Made by a program: the position numbers and the translations under genes. The notes below the pieces were generated by a model. It did no database searches. It saw only the letters and a program-made list of their open reading frames with translations, and was not told the origin of the DNA. Source: a virus. Taken from it: DNA of 20,839 bases. The stretch covers positions 1-20,839 of the IMG/VR virus record IMGVR_UViG_3300048593_000688. One strand, given 5' to 3'. Positions 3,755 to 18,955 of this stretch are shown piece by piece (the stretch's first letter is position 1; each line of letters starts with the position of its first letter).

Positions 3755-3827
3755 GCGGGGTGAGTGAAATGGTTTCCACATAGGCCTCATAAGCCTAAAA
3801 CACTAGGTTCGACTCCTAGACCCCACA
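3755..3827 (+). tRNA. tRNA-like gene, anticodon CAU (Met-type)
   Basis: The sequence folds as a full cloverleaf of 73 nt without encoded CCA. The acceptor arm is GCGGGGT paired with ACCCCAC, with one C-A mismatch at pair 2-71. The D arm is GTG/CAC with GG in its loop. The anticodon stem is TAGGC/GCCTA with loop CTCATAA, giving CAU with T33 in place. The variable region has five bases, and the T arm is CTAGG-TTCGACT-CCTAG. The G1-C72 pair argues for elongator Met rather than initiator; an Ile tRNA modified by lysidine cannot be excluded. Position 8 is G instead of the usual U, and the D stem is short, so it is divergent, as phage tRNAs often are. Confidence 0.8.
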
Positions 3828-6033: not shown

Positions 6034-6110
6034 ATTATAGCAGTGACTTGACATTGGCTCATAAAGGCTCATAACTTGGCTCATAAAGGCTCATAACGGC
6101 TTTATGAGCC
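6034..6110 (-). promoter_or_regulatory. Leftward promoter with GGCTCATAA repeats
   Basis: A perfect TATAAT (minus strand, 6034-6039) precedes the 44-residue gene. No good -35 box is present at the right distance. Instead four direct copies of GGCTCATAA lie at 6056-6064, 6066-6074, 6078-6086 and 6088-6096, with an inverted copy at 6102-6110. Spacing of 10, 12 and 10 bp keeps them on one face of the helix. This suits an activator or a cooperative repressor, perhaps PadR itself or the winged-helix protein upstream. Confidence 0.6.
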
Positions 6111-6356
6111 TTTTGTATAAAAGGTTGCACGGCGCATACCATGCTGGTTTAAGCGACCTTGTTGTTTGAGCTTCTGTAACAGTTTAGAGGCTTGATCTTT
6201 GGTTAGACGACAGAGATACATCACATCCGATCGCTTGATTTGCCCATGTTGAGCGGCGTAGTTAAGGACGAACTGCTCATTTTGGAGATTTGAAAAGCCT
6301 ATTTGTCGAGCGTACTCAGTTTTTTGTCCTGCGGATTGATAGACGATTGAGAGCAA
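6102..6356 (-). CDS. Winged-helix DNA-binding protein
   Basis: An 84-residue protein whose second half reads as a winged helix: EQFVLNYAAQHGQIKRSDVM, then LTKDQASKLLQKLKQQGRLN as the recognition helix, and a wing ending MRRATFYTKG. The start is uncertain: the frame begins at a TTG (6354-6356) with no convincing ribosome-binding site, so the true start may be further downstream or the protein N-terminally truncated. The stop codon overlaps the inverted GGCTCATAA copy. It is the nearest gene to the repeat-rich non-coding region to its right, so it may bind there or at the GGCTCATAA sites. A small plasmid-type replication regulator is possible, but only by position. Confidence 0.6.
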   Translation of the reverse strand: MLSIVYQSAGQKTEYARQIGFSNLQNEQFVLNYAAQHGQIKRSDVMYLCRLTKDQASKLLQKLKQQGRLNQHGMRRATFYTKGS

Positions 6357-6408
6357 AAACTCTACTCTAGAGGAACAAATCGAGTTAATGGGGGGATATT
6401 AAGTAAAA

Positions 6409-6434
6409 AGCAGTAAACAACCTTGTTTACTGCT
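6409..6434 (-). terminator. 26-bp palindrome, possible leftward terminator
   Basis: AGCAGTAAACAA (6409-6420) and TTGTTTACTGCT (6423-6434) are perfect inverted repeats with only CC between. On the minus strand TTTTA follows, so it may stop leftward transcription leaving the repeat region. Its near-perfect symmetry would also suit a protein-binding site. Confidence 0.5.
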
Positions 6435-6490
6435 AAAATAAAAAACAATTGAAATTGACACCATAAATGGTACATAACTGATAAAGCTAA

Positions 6491-6517
6491 CCCCTGTAGT
6501 CTCTACAGGGGTTTTTT
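6491..6517 (+). terminator. Intrinsic terminator, rightward
   Basis: CCCCTGTAG (6491-6499) and CTACAGGGG (6503-6511) form a 9-bp stem with a three-base loop, followed by six T residues. This is a textbook rho-independent terminator. Only a weak promoter-like pair (TTGACA 6455-6460, 18 bp, TGATAA 6479-6484) lies upstream on the same strand, so it either ends a very short RNA or shields the iterons from read-through. Confidence 0.85.
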
Positions 6518-6601
6518 GTTGTCTAATGTTCGGAGCTTGTTGTCTAATGTTCGGAGCTTGGTGGGTAATGTTCGGAGCTTGTTGTCTAATGTTCGGAGCT
6601 T
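6518..6601 (+). repeat. Four 21-bp tandem iterons
   Basis: Units start at 6518, 6539, 6560 and 6581. All share the 15-base core TAATGTTCGGAGCTT; units 1, 2 and 4 are identical and unit 3 differs in its first bases (GGTGGG instead of GTTGTC). A period of two helical turns puts each copy on the same face of the DNA. Confidence 0.95.
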
Positions 6602-6626
6602 GGCTGATTGTTAGATTGTTAATAGA

Positions 6627-6648
6627 TTGTAGATAAGGATATCTACAA
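6627..6648. repeat. Interrupted palindrome 1 (TTGTAGATA / TATCTACAA)
   Basis: Two perfectly inverted 9-bp half-sites separated by AGGA; symmetry extends one more base on each side. First of four 22-bp sites in this region with the same plan. Confidence 0.9.
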
Positions 6649-6769
6649 TGGAAGTCTTGATATATATAGGGTTCAGACTTTGTTGATGTTGTTAACGCTA
6701 TCCCCCAATATTATTTTTTGTGTTCTTATTGCTGACCTCGATTAATTAGATTGTTAGTTTGTAAATAGG

Positions 6770-6791
6770 TTGTAAATACCCTTATTAACAA
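6770..6791. repeat. Interrupted palindrome 2 (TTGTAAATA / TATTAACAA)
   Basis: Half-sites separated by CCCT, inverted except for one position. Same 9-4-9 plan as its neighbours. Confidence 0.85.
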
Positions 6792-6952
6792 AGATAAAAA
6801 GGATAAAAGTATTGATATATATAGCTTTCATTATTTCTTTACCTCTTTGTTGATATTGTTGATGATTACCCCGTGTGTATTTTTTGCCTTATTGTTGAGC
6901 CTGTTTCTTTTTATTGTTGACCTTGTTTGTTTTCTTTATCTTTTTCTCCTCC

Positions 6953-6982
6953 TATAAGGCATCGACAATATCTACAAAGTCT
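6953..6982 (+). repeat. 30-bp module, copy 1
   Basis: Identical to 7189-7218. It begins TATAAGGCATCGACA and includes TATCTACAA, the right half-site of palindrome 1. Each copy is followed after about 25 bp by an interrupted palindrome. Confidence 0.95.
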
Positions 6983-7004
6983 CAAACCTAGTCAAGGTAA
7001 AGGT

Positions 7005-7036
7005 TTCGATTGTTAATAACCTTATTAACAATCGAA
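7005..7036. repeat. Interrupted palindrome 3, extended 15-bp arms
   Basis: TTCGATTGTTAATAA and TTATTAACAATCGAA are perfect inverted repeats with only CC between. The inner 22 bp (7010-7031) match the TTGTnnATA, four bases, TATnnACAA plan. Confidence 0.95.
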
Positions 7037-7188
7037 TTACAAAAGAACAAATTAGCGATAAAACACTTCTCGACACTAAAATTCTCTGATTAGCCAAAAA
7101 TACGGCATTTTGTCAATAGAGTCGGTTTTGCATTTAATGACTTTTTATTGCTGACTTTGCTGTATATCTTCTTTTCTCTCTTTTCCTC

Positions 7189-7218
7189 TATAAGGCATCG
7201 ACAATATCTACAAAGTCT
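7189..7218 (+). repeat. 30-bp module, copy 2
   Basis: Exact copy of 6953-6982, 236 bp further on, also preceded by a pyrimidine-rich tract and followed by an interrupted palindrome. Confidence 0.95.
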
Positions 7219-7245
7219 AAAGCCTATACTCAGCAAGGGTTTCGA

Positions 7246-7267
7246 TTGTCGATAACCTTATTAACAA
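7246..7267. repeat. Interrupted palindrome 4 (TTGTCGATA / TATTAACAA)
   Basis: Half-sites separated by ACCT and inverted except for the two central variable bases (CG against TA); GA and TC extend the match outward to 7244-7269. Confidence 0.85.
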
Positions 7268-7326
7268 TCTATCTACAACCTAACAACCGCTCTGTAGTAT
7301 TTGTAGTATATGTAATACGGATAGAT

Positions 7327-7357
7327 AAAAAAAATACCGCTCCCTCGTAGGGCGGTA
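7327..7357 (-). terminator. Intrinsic terminator, leftward
   Basis: On the minus strand TACCGC (7352-7357) pairs with GCGGTA (7335-7340), with two further C-G pairs past a bulge, followed by eight T residues (7327-7334). It would stop leftward transcription entering the repeat region. A TTGACA on the same strand (7403-7408) lies just upstream and might drive a very short RNA. Confidence 0.75.
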
Positions 7358-7408: not shown

Positions 7409-7539
7409 AGACAAAAAAATAAACGCGCTCCCGGGTGCGGTATAAAAGAGCGCGGCGGTATAAATTATGTTTTCCTTTTAAGTATATCTCAAAAAAGAAA
7501 ATTTAATATATAATACAATAAACAGTACAGAACTTATTG
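7409..7539 (+). promoter_or_regulatory. Leader of the tail-gene block
   Basis: Contains an inverted repeat CGCGCTC (7424-7430) / GAGCGCG (7448-7454) and two copies of GCGGTATAAA (7437 and 7455, 18 bp apart), unusually GC-rich for this region. A good -10 box TATAAT lies at 7509-7514, with no clear -35, as expected if a phage-encoded or modified factor drives late genes. No ribosome-binding site is visible before the ATG at 7540. Confidence 0.45.
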
Positions 7540-12846: not shown

Positions 12847-15102
12847 TTAATTGGCGCAACTAGAACAACTATTGTCAGACTCTTTAAAATTATCTTTTTG
12901 AACAGTTCGTACATAATAGACTGCTTTACATCCTGATTCCCACGCTAAAACTAGGGTTTCATAAATGTCTTTAGCTGTTAATGCGCGGTTAGGTTCATCA
13001 GGAAAATAAACCCCTTGATTAAGGTTGAACAGCAATTCCATAGAAATCCCTGTATCAATCCATTTTTGCATTTCAGCAATCGCTTGAACGACAATCTTTT
13101 GATCAAGATTTTGATTCTCTTGATAATACCAAAAGAAATCCTTAATAAAAGGAGGGCAATTAGGGATAGCACCCTTTGAGTTCTTTTCCGTAAATACCCG
13201 CTTAAAAACGGGCAAAACACTGGCAGTGCAACCTTGAATTAAGGAAGAAGTAGTGTTGGGAGCTACAGCAGTAATATGGGAATTTCTAATGCCAAATTGT
13301 TGAATACTTTTGGCTAATTGATGCCAATTATAGGTATTATCAGAATTTACGTATTCTAATGGTTTAGCCCCTAGTAATTTACCCTGACTCCATTCACTGC
13401 TGGAAAAAGCTTGATAAGCACCGCGTTCTTTAGCCAATCTCATCGAAGCTTGAGTACAAAAATAGCTAATATTTTCAAACAAAATGTTGATAAATGAAAA
13501 AGATTTATACGATAATTTACGTTTAGCTAACCAATCAGCTAATCCCATAACCCCAACTCCAATCGTTCGATATTTATCATTATGTTCTTTAGCCTCGCCA
13601 ATTGGGGGACAAGTGAGGTCGATAGTATTGTCAAGCATCCTGACAGCAAGATGACACATTTCTGATAAATTAGTAGGAGTGTCAATGTTAGCAAGATTAA
13701 GACTAACTAAATTACAGCAATGGGCTGTTTTACCCGGTGTGACATTAGAAAAGCTCTCACAGCACAAATTAACTTGAGGGATGTACCCATCATGTTTATT
13801 AGGATTAGCGCGATTGATAGTATCTTTGAAGGCAAGATAGGGCATACCTGTCTCAATTTGAGGGCGCATAACATCTTTAAATAACTCCCTAGCATTAACC
13901 TTTTTGTAGAGAGTAATTTTTGTTCCTAGACTATCTTCAATTAATTCATAAGCCTCTTCAAATTTGTCCCCCCATAGCTCTGCTAATTCTATCCCTAGTT
14001 TTATCCGAACTTCATAAGGATCAACTAATGTCCACTCGGCTTTATTTATTACCCGACGCATAAATTCATCGGTGATAACTAATTGGGGAAAAATATCATA
14101 AGCTTTGCGTCTTTGATCACCGTTTTCTGTTTGCATTTCCAGAAATTCTGGCACATCTAAATGCCAGATGTCAACACCGATAGTTACTGCCCCGGCGCGT
14201 TTTCCCCCCTGATTTACTGCAATAGCTGTATCGTTGAGTAATTTAATCCAAGGAATAATCCCACCAGAAGCGTTAGCTTTCCCCATAACCGAGCTACCAG
14301 TGGCACGGATTCTACTCACATTCACCCCGACACCGCCACCATTCTTGGAGATGCGAGCAGTATTAGTAATCTCGCTAAAAATACTCTCTAGATTGTCTTC
14401 CATTGCTACGATGAAGCAACTACTTAAAGAACCATTAGGGGTTCTTAGATTGCCTAAAATTGGAGTAGCTAGAGAGATTTTTCTTTGGGCTATGGCTAGG
14501 TAGATTTGACAGGCAAAACTTAATCTATCTTCTGGTTTCTTTTCTACACTGGCAAGTAATAAAGCGCACGTCAAAAAAGCCTCTTGAGGTAATTCACAGT
14601 CAAGTAAATATCTTTTTGACAACATGATTGCACCAGCATAGTCAAAGTCTTTATCGTATTCTGGGTATATCCACTCCCCCGCATTTTCTAAGTCTTTTTC
14701 GTCATAGATTTCCGTAATTTTTGAATCATAAACACCTCTATCCACTTGCCACTGGACATATTTAGCGTAGTCGGTTCCTTCTAATCTTCTGAAAACCGTG
14801 CAAGATAAATAACCGCCAAATTTTCTCTTGATTCTAGTATCCTTCCACAGTCCCCAGACGTGAAGTCTTCCAGCTACATACTTCCAATCAGTCTCTTCTA
14901 CACAAAACAATTGTGTGGCGACATTGATTAAATTTTCTTGAATTTCCCTAGTGGTAATGCCATCTCGTAATCGAGAAGTTAATCCTGATTCTAAAGCGAG
15001 GGGATTTACTTCTAACCCTTCACACGCCCATTCAACTACTCGCCGAATTTTGGTAACGTCTAGGGGACGAGTTTCTCCACTTCTTTGAATTACGTTAATC
15101 AT
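12847..15102 (-). CDS. nrdA: Class I ribonucleotide reductase, large subunit
   Basis: A 751-residue catalytic subunit. An ATP-cone-like regulatory domain occupies about residues 1-90. Active-site residues are in place: C229 (SLSSCF) and C463 (HCCNL) as the redox pair, and N445, C447 and E449 in VNLCCES as the radical cysteine centre. Y729-Y730 carry the radical-transfer chain, and the C-terminal swinging arm ends CSSC (746, 749). Thus the enzyme should be active, aerobic, and fed by thioredoxin or glutaredoxin, none of which is encoded here. There is no intein, unlike many cyanobacterial copies. AGGAGT precedes the ATG; the same leader, AGGAGTAAATAA, stands before the DUF7736-like gene. Confidence 0.96.
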   Translation of the reverse strand: MINVIQRSGETRPLDVTKIRRVVEWACEGLEVNPLALESGLTSRLRDGITTREIQENLINVATQLFCVEETDWKYVAGRLHVWGLWKDTRIKRKFGGYLSCTVFRRLEGTDYAKYVQWQVDRGVYDSKITEIYDEKDLENAGEWIYPEYDKDFDYAGAIMLSKRYLLDCELPQEAFLTCALLLASVEKKPEDRLSFACQIYLAIAQRKISLATPILGNLRTPNGSLSSCFIVAMEDNLESIFSEITNTARISKNGGGVGVNVSRIRATGSSVMGKANASGGIIPWIKLLNDTAIAVNQGGKRAGAVTIGVDIWHLDVPEFLEMQTENGDQRRKAYDIFPQLVITDEFMRRVINKAEWTLVDPYEVRIKLGIELAELWGDKFEEAYELIEDSLGTKITLYKKVNARELFKDVMRPQIETGMPYLAFKDTINRANPNKHDGYIPQVNLCCESFSNVTPGKTAHCCNLVSLNLANIDTPTNLSEMCHLAVRMLDNTIDLTCPPIGEAKEHNDKYRTIGVGVMGLADWLAKRKLSYKSFSFINILFENISYFCTQASMRLAKERGAYQAFSSSEWSQGKLLGAKPLEYVNSDNTYNWHQLAKSIQQFGIRNSHITAVAPNTTSSLIQGCTASVLPVFKRVFTEKNSKGAIPNCPPFIKDFFWYYQENQNLDQKIVVQAIAEMQKWIDTGISMELLFNLNQGVYFPDEPNRALTAKDIYETLVLAWESGCKAVYYVRTVQKDNFKESDNSCSSCAN

Positions 15103-16258: not shown

Positions 16259-17857
16259 TTATTTATCCTGAGTGTAATTTGTTTTTAGTTGAGATGCCCG
16301 TTCAATTTCTCTAGCTAGGTAGCCAATGTGAAACGATTGAATACTGGGACAATCGGCAATTATTTGACGGATTAGTTTTAAAGGATTTTTACCTTCCCAT
16401 TTCCCTACAAATTCACCACTGGGAGTTAGCTGACTAACCGTGATATTATTGCCATCTGTTTCCACTAAAAAGTTACCAGCAGGGTCACTGTAGCCTCGAA
16501 ACTCTTGACTAATAATTGATTGGTATTGATTGTTAATTAACTGTTCTACATTTTCCCAACAGTCATCGTAAATATGGGCTGATTGACTAATGGTAATCAG
16601 TGGACCCATTGATAAATCGTAGTCAGACTGCCTAGCAATTTCATCTCTGATATGACGCTGTAAAGCCCGTAATCCCATTGCATTAGCTGGCCAAGCGGAA
16701 AACATATCATTACTTCTAAAGGTAGCTGTTAAAGACAGTTCATTATCTACTACTCTTACCCAGATATGATTGAGACAGGGAGATCCGCTGTGATTATGAT
16801 CTGAATCGCCTACCGAGCGGCCTCCTCGGTCAATAGAATTTGGTACTATTTCCCACCCGTCAGAATCGAAAAAAAACTCGTTTGATCGGGAAAACTCACT
16901 TTTTAAAGCCAAGCTGTAACATCCACTGGTAAGACTTTGGGGGTTGCCACTCCCGCTATCCCAAAGGGACATAACGGCACTAGCTGAGTCATTTTCTTCA
17001 ATCAATTTGTTGATAACTGCTTTAATCTGGTCTTGACCAAACCAAGAGCGTAATCTTTGACCATAGGTATATTTAACCCCCTCCCTATAATCAGCATCAT
17101 CAAGTATTTGTGGGATATAGTTCTTTAGATATTCTCTATCTAAAGGTAAGTAATTAGGTTCTGGAAAATAAAAATCTTCTGGTTCATCGGTAACTATCGC
17201 CATTAGGTCGATTAATTCTTGCCATTTACCGTCGTAACCAGTAGGTCTGATAGTGCCAGTAGTTTTGATTCTTTGCAGTATTTTTATCCAAGTTTCAGCA
17301 ATGGTTTTGCCCTCAACCCGATGCCCATAGCGCGGTCCGGGTTTTACTTCTGATGTAGGTTCATTGTAGGGAAAAACCATCGGTTCTGCCCACAAACCAA
17401 GGTTTCCTACTTTTACTATTGATTTTATATCTATATCCCGTTCAAGATTTGGTATTAAAATCATAGAATATCGTAATTGATTTAAAACTTCTAAAGGAAT
17501 ATCTATATCGATATATCCTTTTACTAAAGAATCAATTACCCAGCACTCTTTCCCTACATAATTCTTCCCTCTATAAACTCCATTGTCAAAAAAGTCTTTT
17601 AGACATTGAACGCTACCAGAATTTTTGTCTTCTTGGGTTAAATCCATTACAACAAGATAACGAACGTGGGGATTAGCTAACAAATTGCGAACCAAAAAGT
17701 TAATTCCCCTTGGTGCGCTATAGAGGTTCCCGATCACAGCATAATTAGAGGGATCGAGTTTTGCGGCTACTGACTTAGCAGGAGTCCATCCTGTACAGAT
17801 AGCAGTATAACCACTGCCTAAAATCAACTGATTGGGCTTGTAGATCGCATTAAACAT
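16259..17857 (-). CDS. Three-domain thymidylate synthase (MtrA-like, ThyA, DUF4346)
   Basis: A 532-residue fusion. Residues 15-165 resemble the MtrA/tetrahydromethanopterin-methyltransferase-A fold (AICTGWTPAKSVAAKL, then YAVIGNLYSA). Residues 185-450 are an archaeal-type ThyA. The likely nucleophile is C361 in SPCLNHIWVRV; RSNDMFSAWPANAMGL (381-396) binds phosphate and uracil, and SQSAHIYDDCW (425-434) supplies H428 and Y430. Residues 456-522 match DUF4346 (DPAGNFLVETD to GYLAREIER). This layout is that of cyanobacterial chromosomal proteins, so capture from a host is likely. It should methylate dUMP to dTMP using a folate; a hydroxymethylating variant is not excluded. About 50 residues (301-350) seem inserted just before the catalytic Cys. 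It overlaps the upstream small gene by eight bases. Confidence 0.85.
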   Translation of the reverse strand: MFNAIYKPNQLILGSGYTAICTGWTPAKSVAAKLDPSNYAVIGNLYSAPRGINFLVRNLLANPHVRYLVVMDLTQEDKNSGSVQCLKDFFDNGVYRGKNYVGKECWVIDSLVKGYIDIDIPLEVLNQLRYSMILIPNLERDIDIKSIVKVGNLGLWAEPMVFPYNEPTSEVKPGPRYGHRVEGKTIAETWIKILQRIKTTGTIRPTGYDGKWQELIDLMAIVTDEPEDFYFPEPNYLPLDREYLKNYIPQILDDADYREGVKYTYGQRLRSWFGQDQIKAVINKLIEENDSASAVMSLWDSGSGNPQSLTSGCYSLALKSEFSRSNEFFFDSDGWEIVPNSIDRGGRSVGDSDHNHSGSPCLNHIWVRVVDNELSLTATFRSNDMFSAWPANAMGLRALQRHIRDEIARQSDYDLSMGPLITISQSAHIYDDCWENVEQLINNQYQSIISQEFRGYSDPAGNFLVETDGNNITVSQLTPSGEFVGKWEGKNPLKLIRQIIADCPSIQSFHIGYLAREIERASQLKTNYTQDK

Positions 17858-18546: not shown

Positions 18547-18750
18547 TTACTTTGTTTTTTGCCACAGACTATCACCTAATCCCCATTGATGTTTAAGAAA
18601 AGCTTTGTACATATTTTCTCTGACCATCATTTGTTCGTAGAGCTTGATCAGGAAATCCTGCGCTTGCTCCTGACTCATTTTTTCTACCTGAGACTGAAAA
18701 GAACGAATATTGAACTGCTGTTCTAAAGAAAGTTCGATAGGTTGAGACAT
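18547..18750 (-). CDS. nblA: NblA-family phycobilisome degradation protein
   Basis: A 67-residue protein that follows NblA/Ycf18 from end to end: SQPIELSLEQQFNIRSFQSQ, then VEKMSQEQAQDFLIKLYEQM, then MVRENMYKAFLKHQWGL. NblA dimers bind phycobiliproteins and link the antenna to Clp protease. Here the phage would trigger antenna breakdown, limiting photodamage and freeing amino acids. The ATG at 18750 has AGGAG six bases upstream; an upstream in-frame start (18804) would overlap the previous gene. The tail GDSLWQKTK is slightly longer than usual. It sits ahead of the nucleotide genes in the same leftward series, so it should be expressed early. Known from Microcystis and Planktothrix phages. 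Confidence 0.95.
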   Translation of the reverse strand: MSQPIELSLEQQFNIRSFQSQVEKMSQEQAQDFLIKLYEQMMVRENMYKAFLKHQWGLGDSLWQKTK

Positions 18751-18763
18751 GATTACTCCTAAG

Positions 18764-18955
18764 TTAAAATTCAGACTCTTCTTTTTGAGGTTCTCTATTA
18801 TCAAAGTCTTCCAACGTTTGTTTTAGACAATGATAAAAGCCGTTAAATTCGTCAAAGGGTTCCCAGTCTTTTTCATGTTTTTCCAGAAGCTTTCTTGCTA
18901 ACTCTGGTTCAATGGGAACATAGATGTAATCTTCTAGCGTGAATTTATCTTCCAC
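18764..18955 (-). CDS. Hypothetical acidic protein
   Basis: A 63-residue acidic protein starting at GTG 18955, which has an excellent GGGAGGAG seven bases upstream inside the previous gene. It reads EDKFTLEDYIYVPIEPELAR, then KLLEKHEKDWEPFDEF, and ends EPQKEESEF. No family is recognised. It overlaps the preceding gene by 11 bp and is followed by nblA after 13 bp. Acidic small proteins in such early clusters often inhibit host enzymes, but here that is a guess. Confidence 0.65.
   Translation of the reverse strand: MEDKFTLEDYIYVPIEPELARKLLEKHEKDWEPFDEFNGFYHCLKQTLEDFDNREPQKEESEF

Follow-up and report, generated by a model that had tools for sequence, protein, structure and literature searches.

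The DNA that we analysed (the window, 20,839 bases) is the whole of one virus record. Between positions 6357 and 7536 it contains no open reading frame of at least 50 amino acids, and this gap carries repeats, palindromes and terminators far beyond what chance would give, as the first-pass annotation of the sequence had described. Of the 15 copies of the half-site TTGTWRATA in the window, 13 lie at 6616-7278; shuffled sequences held 1.7 copies on average and 5 at most. The palindromes of the form TTGTNRATA-N4-TATYNACAA at 6627, 6770, 7010 and 7246, that is, four of one design as had been claimed, are the only ones in the window, where 0.11 would be expected even if two mismatches were allowed. 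The duplicated modules that had been reported are also real: a stretch of 115 nt is repeated at 79%, and there are arms in inverted orientation with lengths of 46, 41 and 37 nt.

The array is insulated on both sides. An intrinsic terminator on the plus strand (6489-6517; -17.4 kcal/mol, z -4.9) faces the array from the left and would stop rightward transcription; it was found by folding and is conserved with compensatory changes. Another on the minus strand (7327-7357; -13.4 kcal/mol, z -2.6), also found by folding, faces the array from the right and would stop leftward transcription. Both had been proposed earlier. To these we add a second hairpin with a T-run on the minus strand (6409-6434), recognized by folding and in the alignment of relatives, which would stop leftward transcripts leaving the array. 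A 21-bp tandem repeat with four copies (6516-6602) adjoins the array. These copies, previously called iterons, do exist, but they are a variable-number repeat with 1 to 7 copies in relatives, and therefore lie beside the conserved core and are not the core itself.

Some further features were seen at and around the gap. Among close relatives, loops and spacers occur in both orientations (CCCT/AGGG, ACCT/AGGT and TCT/AGA) at window positions 6489-6513, 6409-6434, 6770-6791, 7010-7031 and 7246-7267, and these flips resemble the template-switch inversion of quasi-palindromes. Flanked by two small leftward genes, positions 6054-6110 carry two identical copies of the 22-bp repeat GGCTCATAAAGGCTCATAAC and, after them, GGCTTTATGAGCC in inverted orientation. 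Upstream of the tail operon, a highly conserved GC-rich dyad with GGTATAAAA/GGTATAAAT (7421-7470) is possibly the promoter region of that operon.

Structure of the module and the facing arrangement

Profile searches defined a module of about 97 bp. Its parts stand in the order direct half-sites, 22-bp palindrome (TTGTWRATA-N4-TATYWACAA), a GAAACC-N10-GGTTTC-like stretch, and two further direct half-sites (TTTGTWGATATTGTYGATG), and the direct half-sites are spaced about 8-11 bp. Two subtypes could be distinguished: T1 is characterized by TTGATATATATAG and a CCCC...ATTATTTTTTT tail, and T2 by GAAACC...CCCTG and a purine-rich tail.

At the window locus, two T1 modules (A and B) face two T2 modules (C and D). 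Module A (6609-6704, plus strand, profile match 71.8 bits) consists of an extra half-site, the palindrome at 6627-6648, the TTGATATATATAG core and two direct half-sites. Module B (6752-6871, plus strand, 47.4 bits) has its palindrome at 6770-6791 and contains an insertion of about 24 bp. Facing them on the minus strand are module C (6954-7049, 74.3 bits), with its palindrome at 7010-7031, and module D (7190-7285, 79.5 bits), with its palindrome at 7246-7267.

The tract between B and C (6872-6953) is 78% pyrimidine on the plus strand, and the most purine/pyrimidine-asymmetric 60-mer of the window sits in it (maximum at 6892). Such a tract, 71-84 bp long and 75-81% pyrimidine on one strand, separates T1 from T2 in general. 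The array centres of six genomes fall in the top 0-0.4% of 60-mers for asymmetry, and they are not the least stable DNA of these genomes. As for the AT-rich tracts of the first-pass annotation, the centre is asymmetric in purine/pyrimidine composition and not exceptionally AT-rich or unstable. The two arms of the palindrome differ at a variable dinucleotide in 31 of the 56 modules. This argues for half-sites of a protein over an RNA stem.

The locus is conserved in 23 aligned relatives, which are not independent events, and its half-sites are constrained across them. This conservation, and that in the sister lineage described below, strengthen the view that the locus is an insulated, multi-site non-coding element that is probably bound by protein. 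That much of the earlier claim of "the origin or centromere" can be kept; the role as origin or centromere itself goes beyond the evidence, and several such loci are present in each genome.

Dispersal in the window lineage and a switched half-site in sister phages

The window overlaps closely related contigs of up to about 88-90 kb, and is a fragment of an uncultured cyanophage of about 88 kb that carries NblA. The gene content is that of tailed cyanophages, with a terminase large subunit, thymidylate synthase, RusA and NblA. The last, a phycobilisome-degradation protein (18547-18804, minus strand; PF04485, 89.6 bits), is an auxiliary metabolic gene of freshwater cyanophages. The thymidylate synthase region is joined to a PterinBD-DUF4346 domain in a protein of 532 amino acids (16259-17857, minus strand), and a tRNA-Met gene lies at 3755-3827. 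The first 260 or so residues of one protein of this lineage (L034:397-2064) match a gene of Microcystis phage LMM01 at 91% identity, which makes Microcystis a likely host. The gene has a paralogue close by, and in G001 it is flanked by T1 and T2 modules. Searches with the terminase, the ParB-like protein and the primase revealed no close relative in the phage collection, the locus had no similarity to known phages and plasmids, and publications about ParB or repeated origins in Microcystis phages contained no matching case.

All genomes compared are metagenomic contigs, some of which may be incomplete or permuted, so that absences carry weight mainly within covered, syntenic stretches. Near-complete genomes have about 12 modules at 4-6 syntenic intergenic loci, mostly in the facing arrangement; G001, for example, has 12 when the single modules at 2k, 36k and 89k are counted. 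There are 3-6 copies of the array per genome, the window gap being the largest copy, and most intergenic gaps longer than 150 bp contain no module. Loci with a single module persist, and at some loci copies were lost or shortened, as in the truncated module of L119. The composite motif was found in 88 stretches of IMG/VR; nearly all of them belong to contigs of this lineage, and a few to sister phages. Among 85k prokaryote genomes (257 Gb) it had one match, apparently by chance, and no relative of it was found in host genomes or plasmids. This counts against its being the site of a host-derived regulator.

The sister lineage (G009-G012) is 62-63% identical to the window lineage in the ParB-like protein and 54-57% in the primase. 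Using a profile seeded by hand with repeats from self-BLAST, we found its dispersed repeats in arrays at three homologous loci. One separates the 753-aa-type tail gene from the recombination operon, another is the antirepressor/tail-fibre locus, and the third is the "35k" locus. In the sister arrays the parts follow the same order, T1 again faces T2, and the centre is likewise asymmetric, being only 49-67% AT. Their half-site, in contrast, is ATGTTA and not TTGTWRATA, and their palindrome is ATGTTA-N8/9-TAACAT. The window-lineage profile detected most sister modules only at E 0.01-0.1, and the sister profile detected window-lineage modules at E 0.0009 at best; the two kinds of module look homologous but diverged. 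The same architecture with a different half-site implies a phage-encoded, trans-acting binder whose specificity has changed, as far as can be judged from sequence. Such a concerted change between lineages, at roughly a dozen scattered half-site clusters, would be a clear natural example of a DNA-binding protein co-evolving with its whole set of sites.

Two putative tyrosine recombinases were seen in the sisters (L215:11451-12563 and L216:1-1107; PF00589 at E 7e-5 and 4.5e-4, below the cut-off), while neither a tyrosine integrase nor a serine recombinase was found in six window-lineage genomes. The sister phages may therefore be temperate.

Candidate binding proteins and neighbouring genes

The winged-helix protein encoded at 6102-6356 had been named as the nearest candidate for binding the locus. 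Its gene is present only in the nearest relatives, is missing from most, and is not conserved beside the locus, so we dropped it as a general binder. An Xre-type gene was likewise rejected, not being found beside the primase in the array-bearing genomes G001 and G002.

An RHH-like gene stands directly upstream of the primase-helicase gene in all eight genomes that cover that place; in G001 it occupies 84768-85016 on the minus strand. Its product is about 30% identical between the lineages, and the predicted DNA-contacting strand differs. The assignment is made by sequence pattern and weak matches (best PDB RHH E 0.42; Pfam RHH_1 E 0.014). The DUF3987 primase-helicase itself is universal where covered; it has no PDB relative by profile, and a low-confidence model gives it a C-terminal winged-helix-like fold. 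It is related to the likely Rep of cyanobacterial plasmids of about 7 kb. The small plasmids that encode a related DUF3987 protein had no such arrays, and on one larger plasmid a relative of the primase-helicase is accompanied by an RHH-like gene.

A gene of the ParB superfamily (phrog_1033, E 1.6e-4) lies in a RecT-containing cluster downstream of an array; its position in G001 is 86459-87508 on the minus strand. The top Foldseek matches of its low-confidence model are Noc, Spo0J, ParB and SopB, with E 0.006 at best. The array-bearing sister G009 has no ParB-like match in its 64.5-kb contig, the syntenic position included, and this protein was thus rejected as the sole binder. By phylogenetic profile, the RHH-like protein is the best candidate binder and the ParB-like protein the second.

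Conserved sigma70-like promoters, which are consensus matches read by eye in alignments, lie between the arrays and the downstream genes, 60-170 bp from the array and with no overlap. Array polarity does not follow the orientation of adjacent genes. Rha, Bro-N and KilA-N genes, assigned above Pfam cut-offs, flank the sister arrays. Of the 15 Rha/Bro-type genes in six genomes, 14 stand no more than about 0.6 kb from a module. When the gene positions were rotated, this association recurred in 404 of 20,000 trials; about three independent gene positions underlie it. Profile comparison links the Bro-like family to Bro-N (probability 96%), and in one genome the array-flanked place of the Bro-like gene is taken by a Bro-N gene. 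A 5' leader hairpin followed by GGGACTAAC is common to the Rha and Bro-like genes (G002 73702-74623 and 13864-14009; L052 and L049).

Interpretation and comparison with known systems

We propose, with a probability of roughly 0.45, that the locus is one of several dispersed regulatory arrays of a putative, cooperative DNA-binding protein encoded by the phage. Dimers of this protein would bind the 9-bp half-sites (TTGTWRATA), which stand in direct or inverted orientation at spacings of about 9-11 bp, and two facing subtypes would build one nucleoprotein complex across the pyrimidine-rich tract. The arrays lie between operons and upstream of promoters of the early, sigma70-like type, and from there the complex would control how active the adjacent operons are. 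The putative targets are the recombination genes, the antirepressor-type regulators and the divergent genes at the window locus. The network would work like those of SPBRE/MrpR in SPbeta or of OB/KorB in RK2. Counting against the regulatory reading, the purine/pyrimidine tract and the facing geometry are unexpected for simple operators, the promoters are not overlapped, array polarity is independent of gene direction, and the RHH assignment is weak.

The main rival to this reading concerns replication. The arrays may possibly be several replication origins, at which an initiator (the RHH-like protein, the winged helix at the C terminus of the DUF3987 primase-helicase, or both) would bind the facing modules, open the pyrimidine/purine tract and load the phage primase-helicase. 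The multi-site arrays around a 71-84 bp tract of extreme asymmetry in six genomes and asymmetric also in the sisters, the insulating terminators, the RHH gene directly upstream of the primase-helicase gene, the Rep-like relatives of the primase-helicase and its modelled winged-helix-like C terminus are consistent with this, and lambdoid origins likewise combine iterons with an AT-rich tract (PMC7466680). We nevertheless consider the origin reading the less likely of the two: there are 3-6 copies per genome, the tract is not the least stable DNA and has an AT content of only 49-67% in the sisters, the arrays are missing from small plasmids that carry a related primase, and single-module loci persist. 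GC skew, which had been suggested as a check, gave no clear origin, and third-position skew was also without an informative turn. It is conceivable, though we hold it only tentatively, that we are dealing with an undescribed class of multi-copy phage origins or switch sites, in which half-site arrays face each other around a purine/pyrimidine-asymmetric tract at three ancestral loci and the half-site was replaced wholesale between lineages (ATGTTA versus TTGTWRATA) in parallel with the rapid evolution of the RHH protein that is linked to the primase-helicase.

We think it improbable that the arrays serve the ParB-like protein as dispersed centromeres or as sites for organising DNA, in the manner of N15, Noc or KorB. 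The ParB-superfamily gene exists, in its RecT-containing cluster downstream of an array, but six window-lineage genomes gave no match to the ParA family PF13614 and no ParA-type Walker motif was seen, which weakens the partition reading; the array-bearing sister G009 has no ParB-like match, and host genomes and plasmids have no relative of the motif. That the array is a mobile or MITE-like repeat, or an artefact of assembly, with no function in cis, is very improbable: the repeats are duplicated and face each other, and some loci have lost or truncated copies (L119), yet syntenic positions and architecture persist down to about 55-63% protein identity despite the divergence in sequence, and relatives show constraint on the half-sites. 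A transcribed structured RNA or attenuator would agree with the many hairpins and with the conserved leader hairpin upstream of the Rha and Bro-like genes; the locus, however, had no Rfam match, the palindrome arms mismatch in more than half of the modules and the terminators shield the locus, and we give this explanation hardly any credence. Whether they act as dispersed regulatory arrays, as we favour, or as origins, the arrays offer a precise handle on the control of gene expression or replication in these freshwater cyanophages.

In the centromeres of N15 and of plasmids (SopB, ParG, omega), RHH- or ParB-type proteins bind arrays of short half-sites. Short half-site arrays are present here also, but no partition ATPase was found; of what marks a ParABS centromere, neither a ParA-type ATPase nor a ParB wherever the sites occur was seen in the genomes compared. 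The OB sites of RK2 are single short palindromes, whereas the sites here form clusters, no ParA was found and the ParB-like gene is not universal among array-bearing phages. RK2 resembles the present case in having dispersed palindromic sites proximal and distal to promoters and a global regulator, and a ParB-superfamily protein occurs here as well; KorB acts from OB sites 45 to more than 1000 bp upstream of promoters (PMC11790492). Lambdoid origins, with their O-protein iterons and AT-rich tract (PMC7466680), are alike in having repeated sites beside a tract of unusual composition. Lambda, however, has one origin inside the O gene, as against 3-6 intergenic copies here, where the modules face each other, the tract is not especially AT-rich and no O homologue was identified.

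The SPBRE elements sit in promoter regions of phage SPbeta and bind the master repressor MrpR (PMC10516654). The SPBRE motif is 15 bp in MEME, in contrast to the 97-bp multi-site modules, facing pairs and pyrimidine tract seen here, and the window lineage has no match to the tyrosine recombinase family. The likeness is that one element is repeated at several intergenic sites of a single phage genome, about ten in SPbeta, in promoter regions (PMC10516654). Judged by sequence, the two features that would mark dispersed operators of the SPBRE kind, a repeated intergenic element and a position in promoter regions, are both found in the arrays of these cyanophages.
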